Shown here: positions 507-23,102 of the stretch, piece after piece | Position numbering within the stretch: the first letter of the stretch is position 1 | Layout: every line of letters starts with the position of its first letter | Virus record (IMG/VR): IMGVR_UViG_3300018080_000038 | Span: 1 to 46,539 of that record | Strand: one strand, 5' to 3' | DNA: 46,539 nt | DNA from: a virus | Position numbers and translations under genes: made by a program | The notes under the pieces: generated by a model | The model's database searches: none | What the model saw: the letters and a program-made list of their open reading frames with translations, nothing else | Told to the model about the DNA's origin: nothing

Positions 507-941
507 ATGGCATATCAGGCAATGATCACGGCTATAAAAGCGGACGTCAACACGAAACTCGGGACGGGCGGTTTTAACTATTCGATTCAGTACGAAAACG
601 ATCCGGCGTTTCAGAAGCCGGATAACGCAGTCTGGATCAGGGCGTCGATCAGGCCGGCAGGAGCGAACACTGTCTGCATAAGCGAAAAAAACACATATCG
701 CCAAGAAGGGATTCTCGATCTTCAGGTTAATGCTCCGTTTGGATTCGGAGAAACAGAAGTTAATCTCGCGGTCGAGAGATGTATTCAGGCGTATGATTAT
801 GTTAATATAAACGTCGGTGACGCGGAGGGAACCATCGTGAAATTCGACATGGCTCCGTATCCGACAGTTGTCGGAAGGGCTGCTGGAGAACATCAGGTCA
901 ACGTGACCTGTCCTTACAGGGCTGATTTCACTCAAACTTAA
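507..941 (+). CDS. Tail terminator / tail completion protein (DUF4128-like)
   Basis: The product has 144 residues with no membrane segments. It sits between the gp10-like neck gene and the tail tube gene, where siphophages encode the tail terminator that caps the tube and joins it to the head. The sequence begins with a helix (residues 1-15), followed by an alternating beta pattern with a strand QEGILDLQVNAPFG, as in DUF4128/tail terminator proteins. AGGAG lies eight bases before the ATG at 507. Assignment rests mainly on position and fold-like pattern, with moderate confidence. Confidence 0.7.
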   Translation: MAYQAMITAIKADVNTKLGTGGFNYSIQYENDPAFQKPDNAVWIRASIRPAGANTVCISEKNTYRQEGILDLQVNAPFGFGETEVNLAVERCIQAYDYVNINVGDAEGTIVKFDMAPYPTVVGRAAGEHQVNVTCPYRADFTQT

Positions 942-2968: not shown

Positions 2969-5548
2969 ATGGCTAACACGGCAGTTCTCGCAGTAGCCAT
3001 CAGCGCGAGAGGCGCGGTTCAGGGAGCACGTCAGTATAACACCGCAATCAAGCAGATGATCGCGGGAACTCACGGTGCATCCGGCGCGATGGCCGGCATG
3101 CGAGGAGTCGCGCTCAGACTCTTCGCAGCGGTCGGAGGATATATGGTGTTCAGGAAAATGACGAGCACCATAATGGACTTCGAGGACACGATGGCCAGAC
3201 TTCAGGGAGTAACGAGCGCGACAACTGACGAGATGGAGAGGTTTAACTCCGTCGCGAGAGAACTCGGAGCGACTACTCGATTCACGGCCACTCAGGCGGG
3301 TGAAGGACTCCTGAACTTGTCTCGAGCCGGTTTTACAGTGAACGAAAGTGTCGCAGCGATCGAAGCAACTCTCAATCTCGCATCAGGCGCGATGCTCGAG
3401 CTCGGAGAAGCGAGTTCATTTGTCGCCAATTCAATAAGGCAATTCCGCCTTGGGGCGGATGAGGCCGGTCGTGTGACTGACGTTTTAACCAATACCGCCA
3501 ATAAGTCTAACACGACCGTCAGGGAACTGGCAGACGGTATGAACTACGCCGGTGTTATTGCTGCCCAGGTCGGGATGTCGATCGAAGAGACGGCTGCGGC
3601 CATGGGTGTTATGGCAGACGCCGGTCTGCGAGGATCTAAATCCGGTATGGGGCTGAGACAGGTTCTTGCGGATCTTCTCGCTCCGTCAACGAACGCCGTG
3701 AAGGTCTTGAAGGAACTCGGCCTGACGTACGATCAGATAGATCCGCAGAAGGTCGGACTGGTTCCCGCTCTTCAGGCTCTGAAGGATGCAGGGATGGATA
3801 CGGGTCAGGCGTTCCGGATCTTCGGAGCTCGCGCTGCAACCGCAGCTCTGGCGATGTCTCAGAATATCGAGAAGATCAATCAGCTGACCGACGCGAACCG
3901 GGAAGCGGAGGGAGTCGCGAAGAGAAACGCGGATCTAATTAACAACACTCTCCGGGGCGCGTACCTCCAACTGATCTCGACGCTTCAGGAAGTTACGCTG
4001 ATGATCGGAGAGCGCGGATTCACGAACGCTCTGAAAACGGCGGTCCAGAACATAACTCAGTTCATCCGGGTTCTTGCCGGGATAAAGACGGAAAGTGCGG
4101 AAGTATCCGACGGAGTCCTCCGGGCGGTTATAATGGTCAGAAAGCTCTGGGACTGGCTCGTGAAGTTAAAGACGGTATTCATCGCGATCGTCGCGATCCA
4201 TCTTTCTGCGAAACTCGTTCTTATGGCGAATGCAATGTTTATGTTCGGTAAAGCAACGATATTCGCTGCAGGCGGACTCTTAAAGATGGCAGCCGGGATT
4301 GCCGGCGTTCTTCTTCCCGCTCTCGGTATTCTCGCAACGGCGATCCTCGCGATCGAATTCGGCCGGTGGCTCGAGAGTCTCGAACCGGTTCAGGTGGCTA
4401 TGCAGAACTTCATCTGGTGGATAGCTGAACGATTCCAGTGGTTGAAAAAAATCCTCAACGAAGTGTGGGTTGCGATGAAGGATCTCGCGGTCAGATTTTT
4501 TATAAATCCGCTTATCAATGTTTTCTCCGGAGTATTTACTGAGATTATGGATCTTCTTCGGAAAATGGCTGTTCGAGCAAAGAAGCTGACGAGAGCTCTT
4601 GGGATGGATGAGGCATCAGATAAACTCGCGAAGTTTATCGGTTTTGCAATAGAGAATAGGACGGCTCTAAAGGAAATCGATCTCCCGGATCTCGGCGAGG
4701 AGATGGCAAAGATCGCATCAGATTATGAAACAGAACTCGAGAATATAAAATCTGCTCATAAGCGTGCTCTTGATTCGATCGCGAAACATCAAGCCGGCAA
4801 AACAGAGGATCAGACCTTTTTTGATTTCGCCAGCGCGGACATCCAGAAGATTGTCGACAAGCTCGGACTCTTTAAAGAGGAGACATCCGGAGCGAACGAC
4901 GAGCTCGCGAAATTCCGTGCTGAACTCGACGCGTTCGGAAAAATCGGCGTCAGCTCGACAGAGGATCTGAAGAACGAAATGATCGGGACGAAAGCAGCTA
5001 TTGCTGCAGCAGGCGATACGGCGAGAGCTGCAATGGAGAAGATCGGAACCGATGCGGATGCGACGAAAAAGAAGGTGTCCGATTTTACTGTATCGTGGGA
5101 TGATATGAAGGGAACAATCGGCTCCGGGATAACGGATCTGATTCTCCAGACGAAAAGCTGGAACCAGTCGATCCGGGACGTCACGGACTCGCTCGTTCAG
5201 ATGGCTGTACAGGCTGCAGTTATGAGAGCGATCAGCGGAGGGATCGCCGGCGGAGGAGCCGGAGGAGCAGCGGTTGCTGCAAGCGGTCTTGTCGCTATGG
5301 CTGCAGGAGGAGTCGTTCACGGTCCAACGGCTGCTTTAATCGGAGAACGTGGGCCGGAGGTCGTGATGCCTCTCTCGAGAGACGAACGCGGGAGAATAGG
5401 CGTCGCCGGCGGAGGAGCGGAACAGGTAACAAATAATTTTAATTTAATCAGTCCGGATTCTCGAGGGATAAAAGATATGCTCCTCCGAGATCCGAAACTG
5501 ATCAGGCAGATGAACGAGACGTACAAGCAAGGGTACGCGATAGATTAA
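2969..5548 (+). CDS. Tail tape measure protein
   Basis: An 859-residue protein that sets tail length and fills the tube before DNA ejection. The N-terminal third shows the TP901-type tape measure core: a FEDTMARLQGVTSATTDEM segment near residue 72, then RELGATTRFTATQA and repeated small helices up to about residue 310. Residues about 390-470 contain long hydrophobic helices that could insert in the host membrane. The C-terminal region has the conserved GGVVHGPTAALIGERGPEVV stretch (about 785-805), seen in many tape measure proteins. It directly follows the G/GT chaperone genes. The length would fit a tail of roughly 120-130 nm if about 1.5 Angstrom per residue applies, which is inference. Confidence 0.95.
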   Translation: MANTAVLAVAISARGAVQGARQYNTAIKQMIAGTHGASGAMAGMRGVALRLFAAVGGYMVFRKMTSTIMDFEDTMARLQGVTSATTDEMERFNSVARELGATTRFTATQAGEGLLNLSRAGFTVNESVAAIEATLNLASGAMLELGEASSFVANSIRQFRLGADEAGRVTDVLTNTANKSNTTVRELADGMNYAGVIAAQVGMSIEETAAAMGVMADAGLRGSKSGMGLRQVLADLLAPSTNAVKVLKELGLTYDQIDPQKVGLVPALQALKDAGMDTGQAFRIFGARAATAALAMSQNIEKINQLTDANREAEGVAKRNADLINNTLRGAYLQLISTLQEVTLMIGERGFTNALKTAVQNITQFIRVLAGIKTESAEVSDGVLRAVIMVRKLWDWLVKLKTVFIAIVAIHLSAKLVLMANAMFMFGKATIFAAGGLLKMAAGIAGVLLPALGILATAILAIEFGRWLESLEPVQVAMQNFIWWIAERFQWLKKILNEVWVAMKDLAVRFFINPLINVFSGVFTEIMDLLRKMAVRAKKLTRALGMDEASDKLAKFIGFAIENRTALKEIDLPDLGEEMAKIASDYETELENIKSAHKRALDSIAKHQAGKTEDQTFFDFASADIQKIVDKLGLFKEETSGANDELAKFRAELDAFGKIGVSSTEDLKNEMIGTKAAIAAAGDTARAAMEKIGTDADATKKKVSDFTVSWDDMKGTIGSGITDLILQTKSWNQSIRDVTDSLVQMAVQAAVMRAISGGIAGGGAGGAAVAASGLVAMAAGGVVHGPTAALIGERGPEVVMPLSRDERGRIGVAGGGAEQVTNNFNLISPDSRGIKDMLLRDPKLIRQMNETYKQGYAID

Positions 5549-21315: not shown

Positions 21316-21507
21316 ATGGCAAGCCAAATCAAGAAACGGCTCCGGAAGGGCAAGGACAAAGTTGTCCACGTCGTCAACGATCTTCGGAAGGAAATCGAGG
21401 ATGATAAAGACGGGAAGATCCCGCTGAAAGTTCGCGGGTTGATCCATCAGGCTCGGGATCTTTTAATCGACGCGACGAACAAGCTCACCGAAGCTATTCA
21501 CGAATAG
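21316..21507 (+). CDS. Small basic helical protein (63 aa)
   Basis: Not recognised. ATG 21316 has AAAGGAGGG upstream; an upstream ATG frame start at 21286 lacks this and is rejected. The 63 residues are basic at the N terminus (KKRLRKGKDK) and otherwise helical and amphipathic, suggesting a nucleic-acid or membrane surface contact. The G of its TAG stop is also the first base of the hammerhead ribozyme that follows. Confidence 0.65.
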   Translation: MASQIKKRLRKGKDKVVHVVNDLRKEIEDDKDGKIPLKVRGLIHQARDLLIDATNKLTEAIHE

Positions 21508-21572
21508 CCGAAACGCCCGGAGAGATCCGGGCGTCCGTCCGGGACGATCTCCGGACGCTGACGAGGCAGATC
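21507..21572 (+). ncRNA. Type II hammerhead ribozyme 1
   Basis: Core elements are all present in order: GAAA (21510-21513); stem III ACGCCCGG/CCGGGCGT (21513-21520/21527-21534, including the A15.1-U16.1 pair); cleavage base C17 at 21535; stem I CGTCCGG/CCGGACG (21536-21542/21551-21557); CTGACGA (21558-21564); open stem II GCC/GGC (21507-21509/21565-21567). Loop I GATCT (21546-21550) pairs with AGATC (21568-21572), the pseudoknot expected of type II hammerheads. Predicted cut is after 21535. It lies between two early genes and should cleave their shared mRNA. Confidence 0.9.
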
Positions 21573-21599: not shown

Positions 21600-21947
21600 A
21601 TGGCGAAGGCGAAGGCGAAGAAAAAGACGGTGAAGAAAAAGACGGTAAAGAAATCACCGGCGAAGAGCAAGCAGCCAGAACTGGAAAAGAAGCCGGCACC
21701 CGGGAAACTCTTCCCGGAGGCGAAGATGCCGAAAGACATGGTTGCGCTCGCGAAGAAGATGAAGAGTGCCGAACTCGAGAGGAAGCGTCAAGGCGGAATC
21801 GAGAACGAGGCGCGCGAACTTCTCTGCGCGAAAATGATCCAGAAAGGCTTCAGTCGTTTTCTTGTAGAGGTCGGAGGACAGGACTATGAATTCGAGCTCA
21901 AGGAGCTGACCAAAGTAACGTCACACAAGATGGACGACGAAGAGTAA
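21600..21947 (+). CDS. Lys-rich small protein flanked by two ribozymes (115 aa)
   Basis: Not recognised. ATG 21600 is preceded by TTGGAG; a TTG reading from 21588 would include the ribosome site and is rejected. The first 20 residues are (A/V/T)KK repeats like a histone H1 tail, then a linker rich in Pro, then a helical and beta segment (about 45-115) containing FLVEVGGQDYEFELKEL. It probably binds nucleic acid. It is the only gene between the two hammerhead ribozymes, so it would sit alone on a roughly 441-nt RNA after cleavage. Confidence 0.7.
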   Translation: MAKAKAKKKTVKKKTVKKSPAKSKQPELEKKPAPGKLFPEAKMPKDMVALAKKMKSAELERKRQGGIENEARELLCAKMIQKGFSRFLVEVGGQDYEFELKELTKVTSHKMDDEE

Positions 21948-22017
21948 CCGAAACGCGGGGAGCCGTCCCCCGCGTCTCCGGGGAATAGGATCAGCCCCGG
22001 ACTGACGAGGACGATCC
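21948..22017 (+). ncRNA. Type II hammerhead ribozyme 2
   Basis: Same arrangement as element 1 with different paired bases: GAAA (21950-21953); stem III ACGCGGGG/CCCCGCGT (21953-21960/21968-21975); C17 at 21976; stem I TCCGGGG/CCCCGGA (21977-21983/21995-22001); CTGACGA (22002-22008); open stem II CC/GG (21948-21949/22009-22010), only two pairs. Loop I GGATC (21988-21992) pairs with GATCC (22013-22017). Core bases are unchanged while helix bases covary relative to element 1, which is strong support. Predicted cut is after 21976, upstream of the ribosome site of the nuclease gene. Confidence 0.9.
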
Positions 22018-22043
22018 GAAACTGTTCTATTAAGGAGGGCAAG

Positions 22044-23102
22044 ATGGCAAAGAAGATTTTAACCTATTCATCGATGAGCTGCGCGAAGACGTGCTTGAGG
22101 ATGTATCGCTTTCGATACGTTCTCGGACTTCGCAAACAGGTCGTGGACACCCCACTCTATGTCGGGAAGATGTTCCACGAGGGACTCGAGAAAAAAGAGA
22201 TCCCGAAGAAACCGGAGAACCCGGACTGGCTCGGACTCGAAGGAGACTGGGACGCGGACAAGTACAAGTTCGATTGCGATTATCAGCTCGCGTGCGCTAT
22301 GGTCAACGCGTATCTCGAATACTGGTCAGACGACGCGGTCGAAACGATCAAGGCTGAGTGGGAATTTAAAAATCCGATCGGAAATCCCGAGACGTCCGGA
22401 TCTTCGCGAACGTTCGACACCGCCGGGAAGATCGATAAGATCGTCAAGCTCCCTGACGGGAGGATCGCGATAATGGAGCACAAGACGACGAGCGACGATC
22501 TCGATCCGGAGGGAGCGTACTGGCGGAAGCTCCGGATGGACCAACAGATCTCTCACTATTTCCTTGCGATCCAAGAATACTCCCCAGCCGATACAGTTCT
22601 CTATGACGTGACACGGCGTCCGGCTCTTAGGCCGAAAACGATCCCGAACCTCGACAAGGACGGGAAGAAGATCGTTCACGACGGAGACGGGAACCGGATG
22701 TTTAAAAAGAACGGCGATCCGTATGAGTCCGGAGACGAGAAGAAGGGACGGTTCCTGCAGACGAGATCTGAGAGCCCGGAGGAGTACGGACTCCGCGTGT
22801 TCAACGAGATGTCCTCGAACCCGGAGAGATACTTCTGCCGGCGCGAAGTTCCGAGGCTCCAGCAGGATCTCGACGAGTACAAATATGAGCTCTGGCAACA
22901 GCAGCAGATGATCGGAGATTGTTATCGAAACGATCGTTGGTTCAAAAATACCGGAGCCTGTTTCAAATGGAATAAGCCGTGCCCGTATTTCGACATCTGC
23001 ACGGCAGGGTTAGAAGTAAACGAAGGCGATGACGCCCCATTAGGTTTTGAATTCGGAGAGAAACACGCGGAGCTCTCGATCAGGGAAGGAGGTGAGGAGT
23101 AA
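22044..23102 (+). CDS. PD-(D/E)XK nuclease, RecB/Cas4-like
   Basis: 352 residues. The nuclease core shows Asp131 in GKIDKIVKL and Glu145-x-Lys147 in IMEHKTT, then a helix with DQQISHYFLAIQ that matches the QxxxY-type motif. Cys13 and Cys17 near the N terminus and a C-terminal Cys cluster (CFKWNKPCPYFDIC) suggest an iron-sulfur cluster as in Cas4/AddB-type enzymes. It is expected to be an exonuclease in recombination-dependent replication. AAGGAGGG precedes the ATG. The next genes are a Sak4-like ATPase and a likely SSB, so the three probably form a recombination module. Confidence 0.9.
   Translation: MAKKILTYSSMSCAKTCLRMYRFRYVLGLRKQVVDTPLYVGKMFHEGLEKKEIPKKPENPDWLGLEGDWDADKYKFDCDYQLACAMVNAYLEYWSDDAVETIKAEWEFKNPIGNPETSGSSRTFDTAGKIDKIVKLPDGRIAIMEHKTTSDDLDPEGAYWRKLRMDQQISHYFLAIQEYSPADTVLYDVTRRPALRPKTIPNLDKDGKKIVHDGDGNRMFKKNGDPYESGDEKKGRFLQTRSESPEEYGLRVFNEMSSNPERYFCRREVPRLQQDLDEYKYELWQQQQMIGDCYRNDRWFKNTGACFKWNKPCPYFDICTAGLEVNEGDDAPLGFEFGEKHAELSIREGGEE

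Follow-up and report, generated by a model that had tools for sequence, protein, structure and literature searches.

Genes and ribozymes at the locus

The DNA analysed (the window) was the entire IMG/VR record IMGVR_UViG_3300018080_000038, 46539 bases in length, in which tail, portal, terminase and replication genes were present. Two elements (HH1 and HH2) and the neighbouring genes were located as follows:

21316-21507, + strand: gene of a small basic protein, ending at HH1 (63 aa, without family match)
21507-21572, + strand: HH1, the first type II hammerhead (core 21507-21567 and pseudoknot tail; Rfam, model R1 and orthologues in kin)
21535, + strand: C after which cleavage of HH1 is predicted
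21600-21947, + strand: 115-aa gene between HH1 and HH2 (without family match; 44-53% identity in alignment A1)
21948-22017, + strand: HH2, type II hammerhead ribozyme with pseudoknot (direct reading, descriptor, Rfam and an independent covariance model)
21948-21949 and 22009-22010, + strand: CC and GG of HH2 (direct reading)
21950-21952 and 22002-22008, + strand: core GAA and CTGACGA of HH2 (direct reading)
21953-21975, + strand: stem III hairpin of HH2, 8 bp, ACGCGGGG (21953-21960) with CCCCGCGT (21968-21975)
21976/21977, + strand: predicted cleavage of HH2, after C21976 (C17)
21977-22001, + strand: stem I hairpin of HH2, 7 bp, TCCGGGG (21977-21983) with CCCCGGA (21995-22001)
21988-21992, + strand: pseudoknot strand GGATC in loop I of HH2 (reading; pseudoknot covariation in the family)
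22013-22017, + strand: pseudoknot strand GATCC in the 3' tail of HH2 (reading; pseudoknot covariation in the family)
22032-22039, + strand: Shine-Dalgarno-like AAGGAGGG ahead of the exonuclease gene
22044-23102, + strand: PD-(D/E)XK exonuclease gene downstream of HH2 (Pfam PF12705, 1.1e-11; phrog_1218 exonuclease)

The initial annotation had placed a type II hammerhead with a pseudoknot at 21948-22017, and every coordinate and pairing was found to be correct on direct reading. Stems I and III are closed by loops and stem II is open (the type II helix order), and the RF02276 core (CUGANGA, GAA, A15.1-U16.1 and H17) was recovered both by reading and by the descriptor scan. Stem II has only 2 bp. 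Loop I and the 3' tail form a pseudoknot of 5 bp, a feature (at least 4 bp) that is common, not universal, in RF02276. The TAA stop of the 115-aa gene (21945-21947) directly adjoins HH2, and the first G of HH1 is the last base of the TAG stop of its upstream gene. HH1 starts 441 bases upstream of HH2 and has an identical core with different stems, as had been described earlier (the same core about 440 bases apart, with other stems).

Detection and chance controls

Both strands of the window were scanned with the descriptor, and HH1 and HH2 were the only hits; in 100 Markov-shuffled windows, the same descriptor found 0.01 hits per window at loose settings and no hit at strict ones. With Rfam RF02276, HH1 scored 50.5 bits and HH2 29.9 bits, the latter below the gathering cutoff of 37 bits, which is a curation threshold and no structural feature. 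A covariance model (R1) was built from 33 viral hammerheads, with the window and its syntenic kin left out. On the window, R1 gave 57.2 bits for HH1 and 47.0 bits for HH2 (E 2.5e-10), and the next match scored 13.6 bits. A chance origin of HH2 was ruled out by the shuffled-window control and the R1 scores.

The type III family RF00008 gave no match in the window and 15 records, a weak negative result, as the control genomes gave nothing either. At 2984-3038, the fluoride riboswitch family matched with 20.7 bits (cutoff 34), which we took to be a chance hit. No terminator-like site was found on the + strand between 20000 and 24000, and HH2 carries no T run on this strand, so that the GC hairpin plus T run on the coding strand that marks an intrinsic terminator is absent. 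From bacterial genomes, 11 descriptor hits were obtained in 119 pattern matches, some of them by chance and too few for a replicate; this sparseness indicates that, outside phages, a match to the DNA pattern is by itself weak evidence.

Predicted folding

The nested minimum-energy fold of HH2 (-32.3 kcal/mol) is not the hammerhead (-28.1 kcal/mol when nested), because the tail can pair otherwise with the loop I strand; the folding program leaves the energy of the pseudoknot uncounted. When the RNA was ended before the pseudoknot tail, the hammerhead was the predicted fold of HH2. For HH1, the hammerhead was the minimum-energy fold and no such competing structure was obtained. On these predictions, HH2 may have to fold co-transcriptionally, and its cleavage may be incomplete.

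The same energies would suit a regulated switch, in which the competing fold, which draws on the pseudoknot strand and wins once the tail of HH2 has been made, ties cleavage to a ligand, a protein, the ribosome or temperature. We regard such a switch as highly improbable: the energy comparison leaves out the pseudoknot, HH1 shows no fold competition, and the kin showed no additional conserved sequence.

Covariation of the paired bases

Selection on RNA structure had been proposed from the covariation of HH1 and HH2. Two members alone make a thin case for covariation; 11 syntenic and 33 other viral copies put the covariation on a firm footing. In the 11 copies (the window and its syntenic kin), aligned by placing segments by hand and working outward from the core, 13 of the 14 counted stem pairs were changed on both sides and none was broken, and a pseudoknot of 4-6 bp was possible in every copy. 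The 33 other viral copies, for which stems I and III formed part of the selection criteria and the pseudoknot did not, gave a covariation score of 0.76, compared with 0.18 for shuffles and at most 0.14 for slid controls. All five pseudoknot pairs were changed on both sides across these 33 copies. Model R1, placement in kin and covariation together support the identification as a type II hammerhead, the pseudoknot and the action of selection on RNA structure.

Hammerheads at the matching junctions of related phages

Kin of the flanking genes were found (exonuclease, 51-65% identity; 115-aa protein, 44-53%), and their DNA was inspected for conserved placement, a check that the initial annotation had called for; hammerheads were found at the corresponding junctions. 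Ahead of the 115-aa gene, they were present in the window (HH1), L008/L158 and L172/L173, with variants in L003, L004 and L006 and a degenerate copy in L005. Downstream of this gene they were present in the window (HH2), L158 (position 4640) and L172 (1488), and directly before the exonuclease gene in the window (HH2), L158 (5160) and L172 (2029). The small gene lies before HH1 in the window and before the exonuclease gene in L158 and L172, and the junction ribozymes were kept despite this reordering. ORFs resembling the 63-aa basic protein were present in L003-L006, L008 and L172.

At the HH2 junction of L003-L006, a long hairpin stands in place of the hammerhead, followed in L004 and L006 by a run of six T, like an intrinsic terminator. 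A search for another known ribozyme at this junction in L003-L006 gave no Rfam family at E values up to 5.

Kin with only hairpins at the HH2 junction are what one might expect if HH2 were a decayed, non-cleaving relic, kept merely as a hairpin after the stop codon, and the score under the Rfam cutoff, the 2-bp stem II and the alternative fold point the same way. The core of HH2 is complete, however, both long stems and the pseudoknot are intact, compensatory changes occur throughout, and the independent model scored it at 47.0 bits; we therefore judge that HH2 is very unlikely to be a relic.

A search with the AAA protein as query found no kin. In the nearest annotated phages, neither DNA matching the ribozyme region nor a relative of the 115-aa protein was found.

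Several features of the related stretches were recorded in addition. The HH1 orthologue of L003 (797-912) has a one-base core insertion (GAUA for GAA) with intact stems, and that of L006 (5377-5510) has U-A, not A-U, at pair 15.1-16.1. In L005 (5500-5570), the 115-aa gene seems, by comparison with L004, to have lost its stop codon and to run on into the hairpin at the junction. L177 carries a direct repeat of about 80 bases with leader and start codon (3250-3340 and 3880-3970), located upstream of an exonuclease homologue that is more distant. A gene with many short repeats of the GIEAG/GIKAG type lies near the exonuclease homologue of L178 (1400-1800).

Placement of type II hammerheads in viral DNA

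The viral pattern scan covered at least 120 stretches, and the descriptor confirmed at least 162 distinct type II hammerheads in at least 85 loci. Among the type II matches listed, the core-proximal start of helix II was within 10 nt of a stop codon (counting the stops of ORFs with 50 codons or more) in 82% and within 3 nt in 61%. The within-10-nt controls gave 7% for random positions, 5% for positions shifted by 60-300 nt and 12% for the opposite strand; averaging per locus gave 81% (among the matches listed). A Shine-Dalgarno-led start was found within 60 nt in 80% of the type II copies listed, and the next such start, where found, was at a median of 26 nt downstream. In the slack test, a mean of 28% of the spare junction length was on the 5' side, which is a mild bias only.

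Cultured phages were also found to carry these elements. Hammerheads that lack an annotation and score above or close to the Rfam cutoff were detected in stretches of 7.5-9.6 kb from the Streptomyces phages Marav (12, L522), Omar (9, L523) and Issmi (10, L525), and one un-annotated type II hammerhead in the Rhodobacter phage RcapMu (L524). In the Streptomyces phage stretches, 25 of the 28 annotated gaps of at least 60 nt hold a hammerhead. In the four cultured phages together, the ribozyme lay farther from the annotated stop (median 16 nt), and its spacing to the next start was more regular. Strict stop anchoring as a universal rule was rejected, since it fails in the Streptomyces phages (median 16 nt after the annotated stop). 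Marav, Omar, Issmi and RcapMu offer laboratory systems for trying the idea that these ribozymes leave hairpin-capped 3' ends at gene junctions.

One metagenomic phage (L157, G012:C1:9000-18500) carries 24 Rfam type II hammerheads between 9932 and 17520 (7.6 kb), almost one per small gene. The Omar stretch also holds, at 550-667 (+ strand), an apparent 16S rRNA fragment, which aligned with positions 106-311 of the bacterial model at 68.4 bits.

Comparison with type I and type III hammerheads

In a type III hammerhead, helix III is open and parts at cleavage, and so cannot cap the upstream product. If the purpose of the ribozyme is a hairpin end for the upstream message, a type III copy would therefore need an added hairpin. 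In most type III copies, the stop codon lies 20-40 nt upstream, and a further hairpin is usually present in between, in most cases directly adjoining helix III. Among the matches listed, an added hairpin of at least 6 bp was found in 69% of type III copies (15% in shuffles, 18% downstream of other stops in these contigs) and one of at least 8 bp in 44% (2.4% and 2.6%, respectively). In a second, separately fetched type III sample, the hairpin was found in 80% of the matches listed, compared with 21% and 27% in the controls. Type III copies within one clade are not independent in these counts, and several have the hairpin GTGTCTTCAAAGACAC in common. As a rival reading, the added hairpin would stack on helix III and aid folding.

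The hairpin GTGTCTTCAAAGACAC was seen just upstream of type III copies in separate contigs (for example L209, L256, L257, L529, L549, L580 and L594).

The upstream product of type I keeps a hairpin at its end. A hairpin opens the downstream product of types II and III, and not that of type I (22%, compared with 23% when shuffled, among the matches listed). Comparison of the three types thus gives, as their common output, a stop codon, a hairpin and a cut end, i.e. an upstream 3' hairpin.

These data also bear on whether the ribozyme serves the downstream gene instead, by giving the exonuclease mRNA a defined, structured 5'-hydroxyl end or by freeing its ribosome binding site, with the upstream hairpin incidental. 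The frequency of Shine-Dalgarno-led starts within 60 nt (80% of the type II copies listed) agrees with service to the downstream gene, as do the spacing in the Streptomyces phages, tighter to the next start than from the stop, and the retention of stem I and the pseudoknot by the type II downstream product. Type I copies, on the other hand, occupy similar junctions without such a 5' hairpin, and a downstream function does not need the upstream hairpin that type III copies have added; we consider this explanation rather unlikely.

Proposed role

HH2 is, in our view, probably a genuine type II hammerhead that cuts co-transcriptionally at the gene junction and leaves the upstream mRNA with a hairpin-capped 3' end. 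The minimum-energy fold of HH2, its 2-bp stem II and the weak or variant copies in L003, L005 and L006 count against this interpretation, as do the inactive consensus hammerheads of Perreault 2011 and the looser stop spacing in the Streptomyces phages. We infer cleavage, its timing and an effect on mRNA stability along the following lines. In this tailed phage, HH2 is encoded on the coding strand, where it fills the junction between the 115-aa gene and the PD-(D/E)XK exonuclease gene. Stems III and I would fold during transcription, the tail would pair with loop I next, and the RNA would be cut after C21976. The upstream mRNA would then end in the stop codon, a short linker and the stem III hairpin, with the polymerase not stopped, and the downstream mRNA would begin with a 5'-OH, the stem I hairpin and the pseudoknot, followed by the ribosome binding site. 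One polycistronic transcript could in this manner be turned into stable single-gene messages while transcription continues.

As a tentative extension, to which we give slightly less than even weight, phage hammerheads of all three topologies may be a general device that forms mRNA 3' ends without termination. The hairpin would come from helix III (types I and II) or be added (type III) and would be exchangeable with terminator hairpins, and some phages carry a ribozyme at almost every gene junction of a region. The purpose of phage hammerheads has been in question since the 2011 report (Perreault 2011, PMC3088659), and the placement rule leads to a precise, testable prediction, namely hairpin-capped 3' ends beside stop codons.

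Relation to known systems

HH2 belongs to a kind already known since Perreault 2011 (PMC3088659), where type II hammerheads with the pseudoknot were described in prophages, in clusters flanking single genes, and mRNA processing was proposed. HH2 is like RF02276 and the elements of that report in topology, core, short stem II and loop I-tail pseudoknot. In the same work, tandem arrays cleaved in vitro and one array cleaved in E. coli, and 4 of 18 consensus hammerheads assayed in vitro were inactive. Neither 'stop codon' nor 'terminator' occurs in its main text, and the placement rule, the added hairpin of type III and the exchange with terminator-like hairpins were not found in it. The search, which covered mainly open-access papers, did not find these three points elsewhere either; the placement rule seems new, and on that scope the newness of all three is not certain.

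With the pseudoknot-containing hammerhead of Zhan et al. 2024 (PMC11300833) and the pistol ribozyme, HH2 shares a pseudoknot that joins loop I to the helix II side, and their G8/G12 chemistry would be expected in HH2 too. The construct of Zhan et al., on which the work was done in vitro, differs by an extra stem-loop, and phages are unmentioned. Like an intrinsic terminator, HH2 would leave an mRNA 3' end just past a hairpin downstream of a stop codon; unlike one, it lacks a T run on the + strand, and transcription is expected to continue past the cut. The theta (HDV-like) ribozymes of gut phages (PMC10879173) resemble HH2 as small self-cleaving RNAs in phage genomes, but they have another fold and are tied to tRNA-based recoding, not to mRNA junctions.
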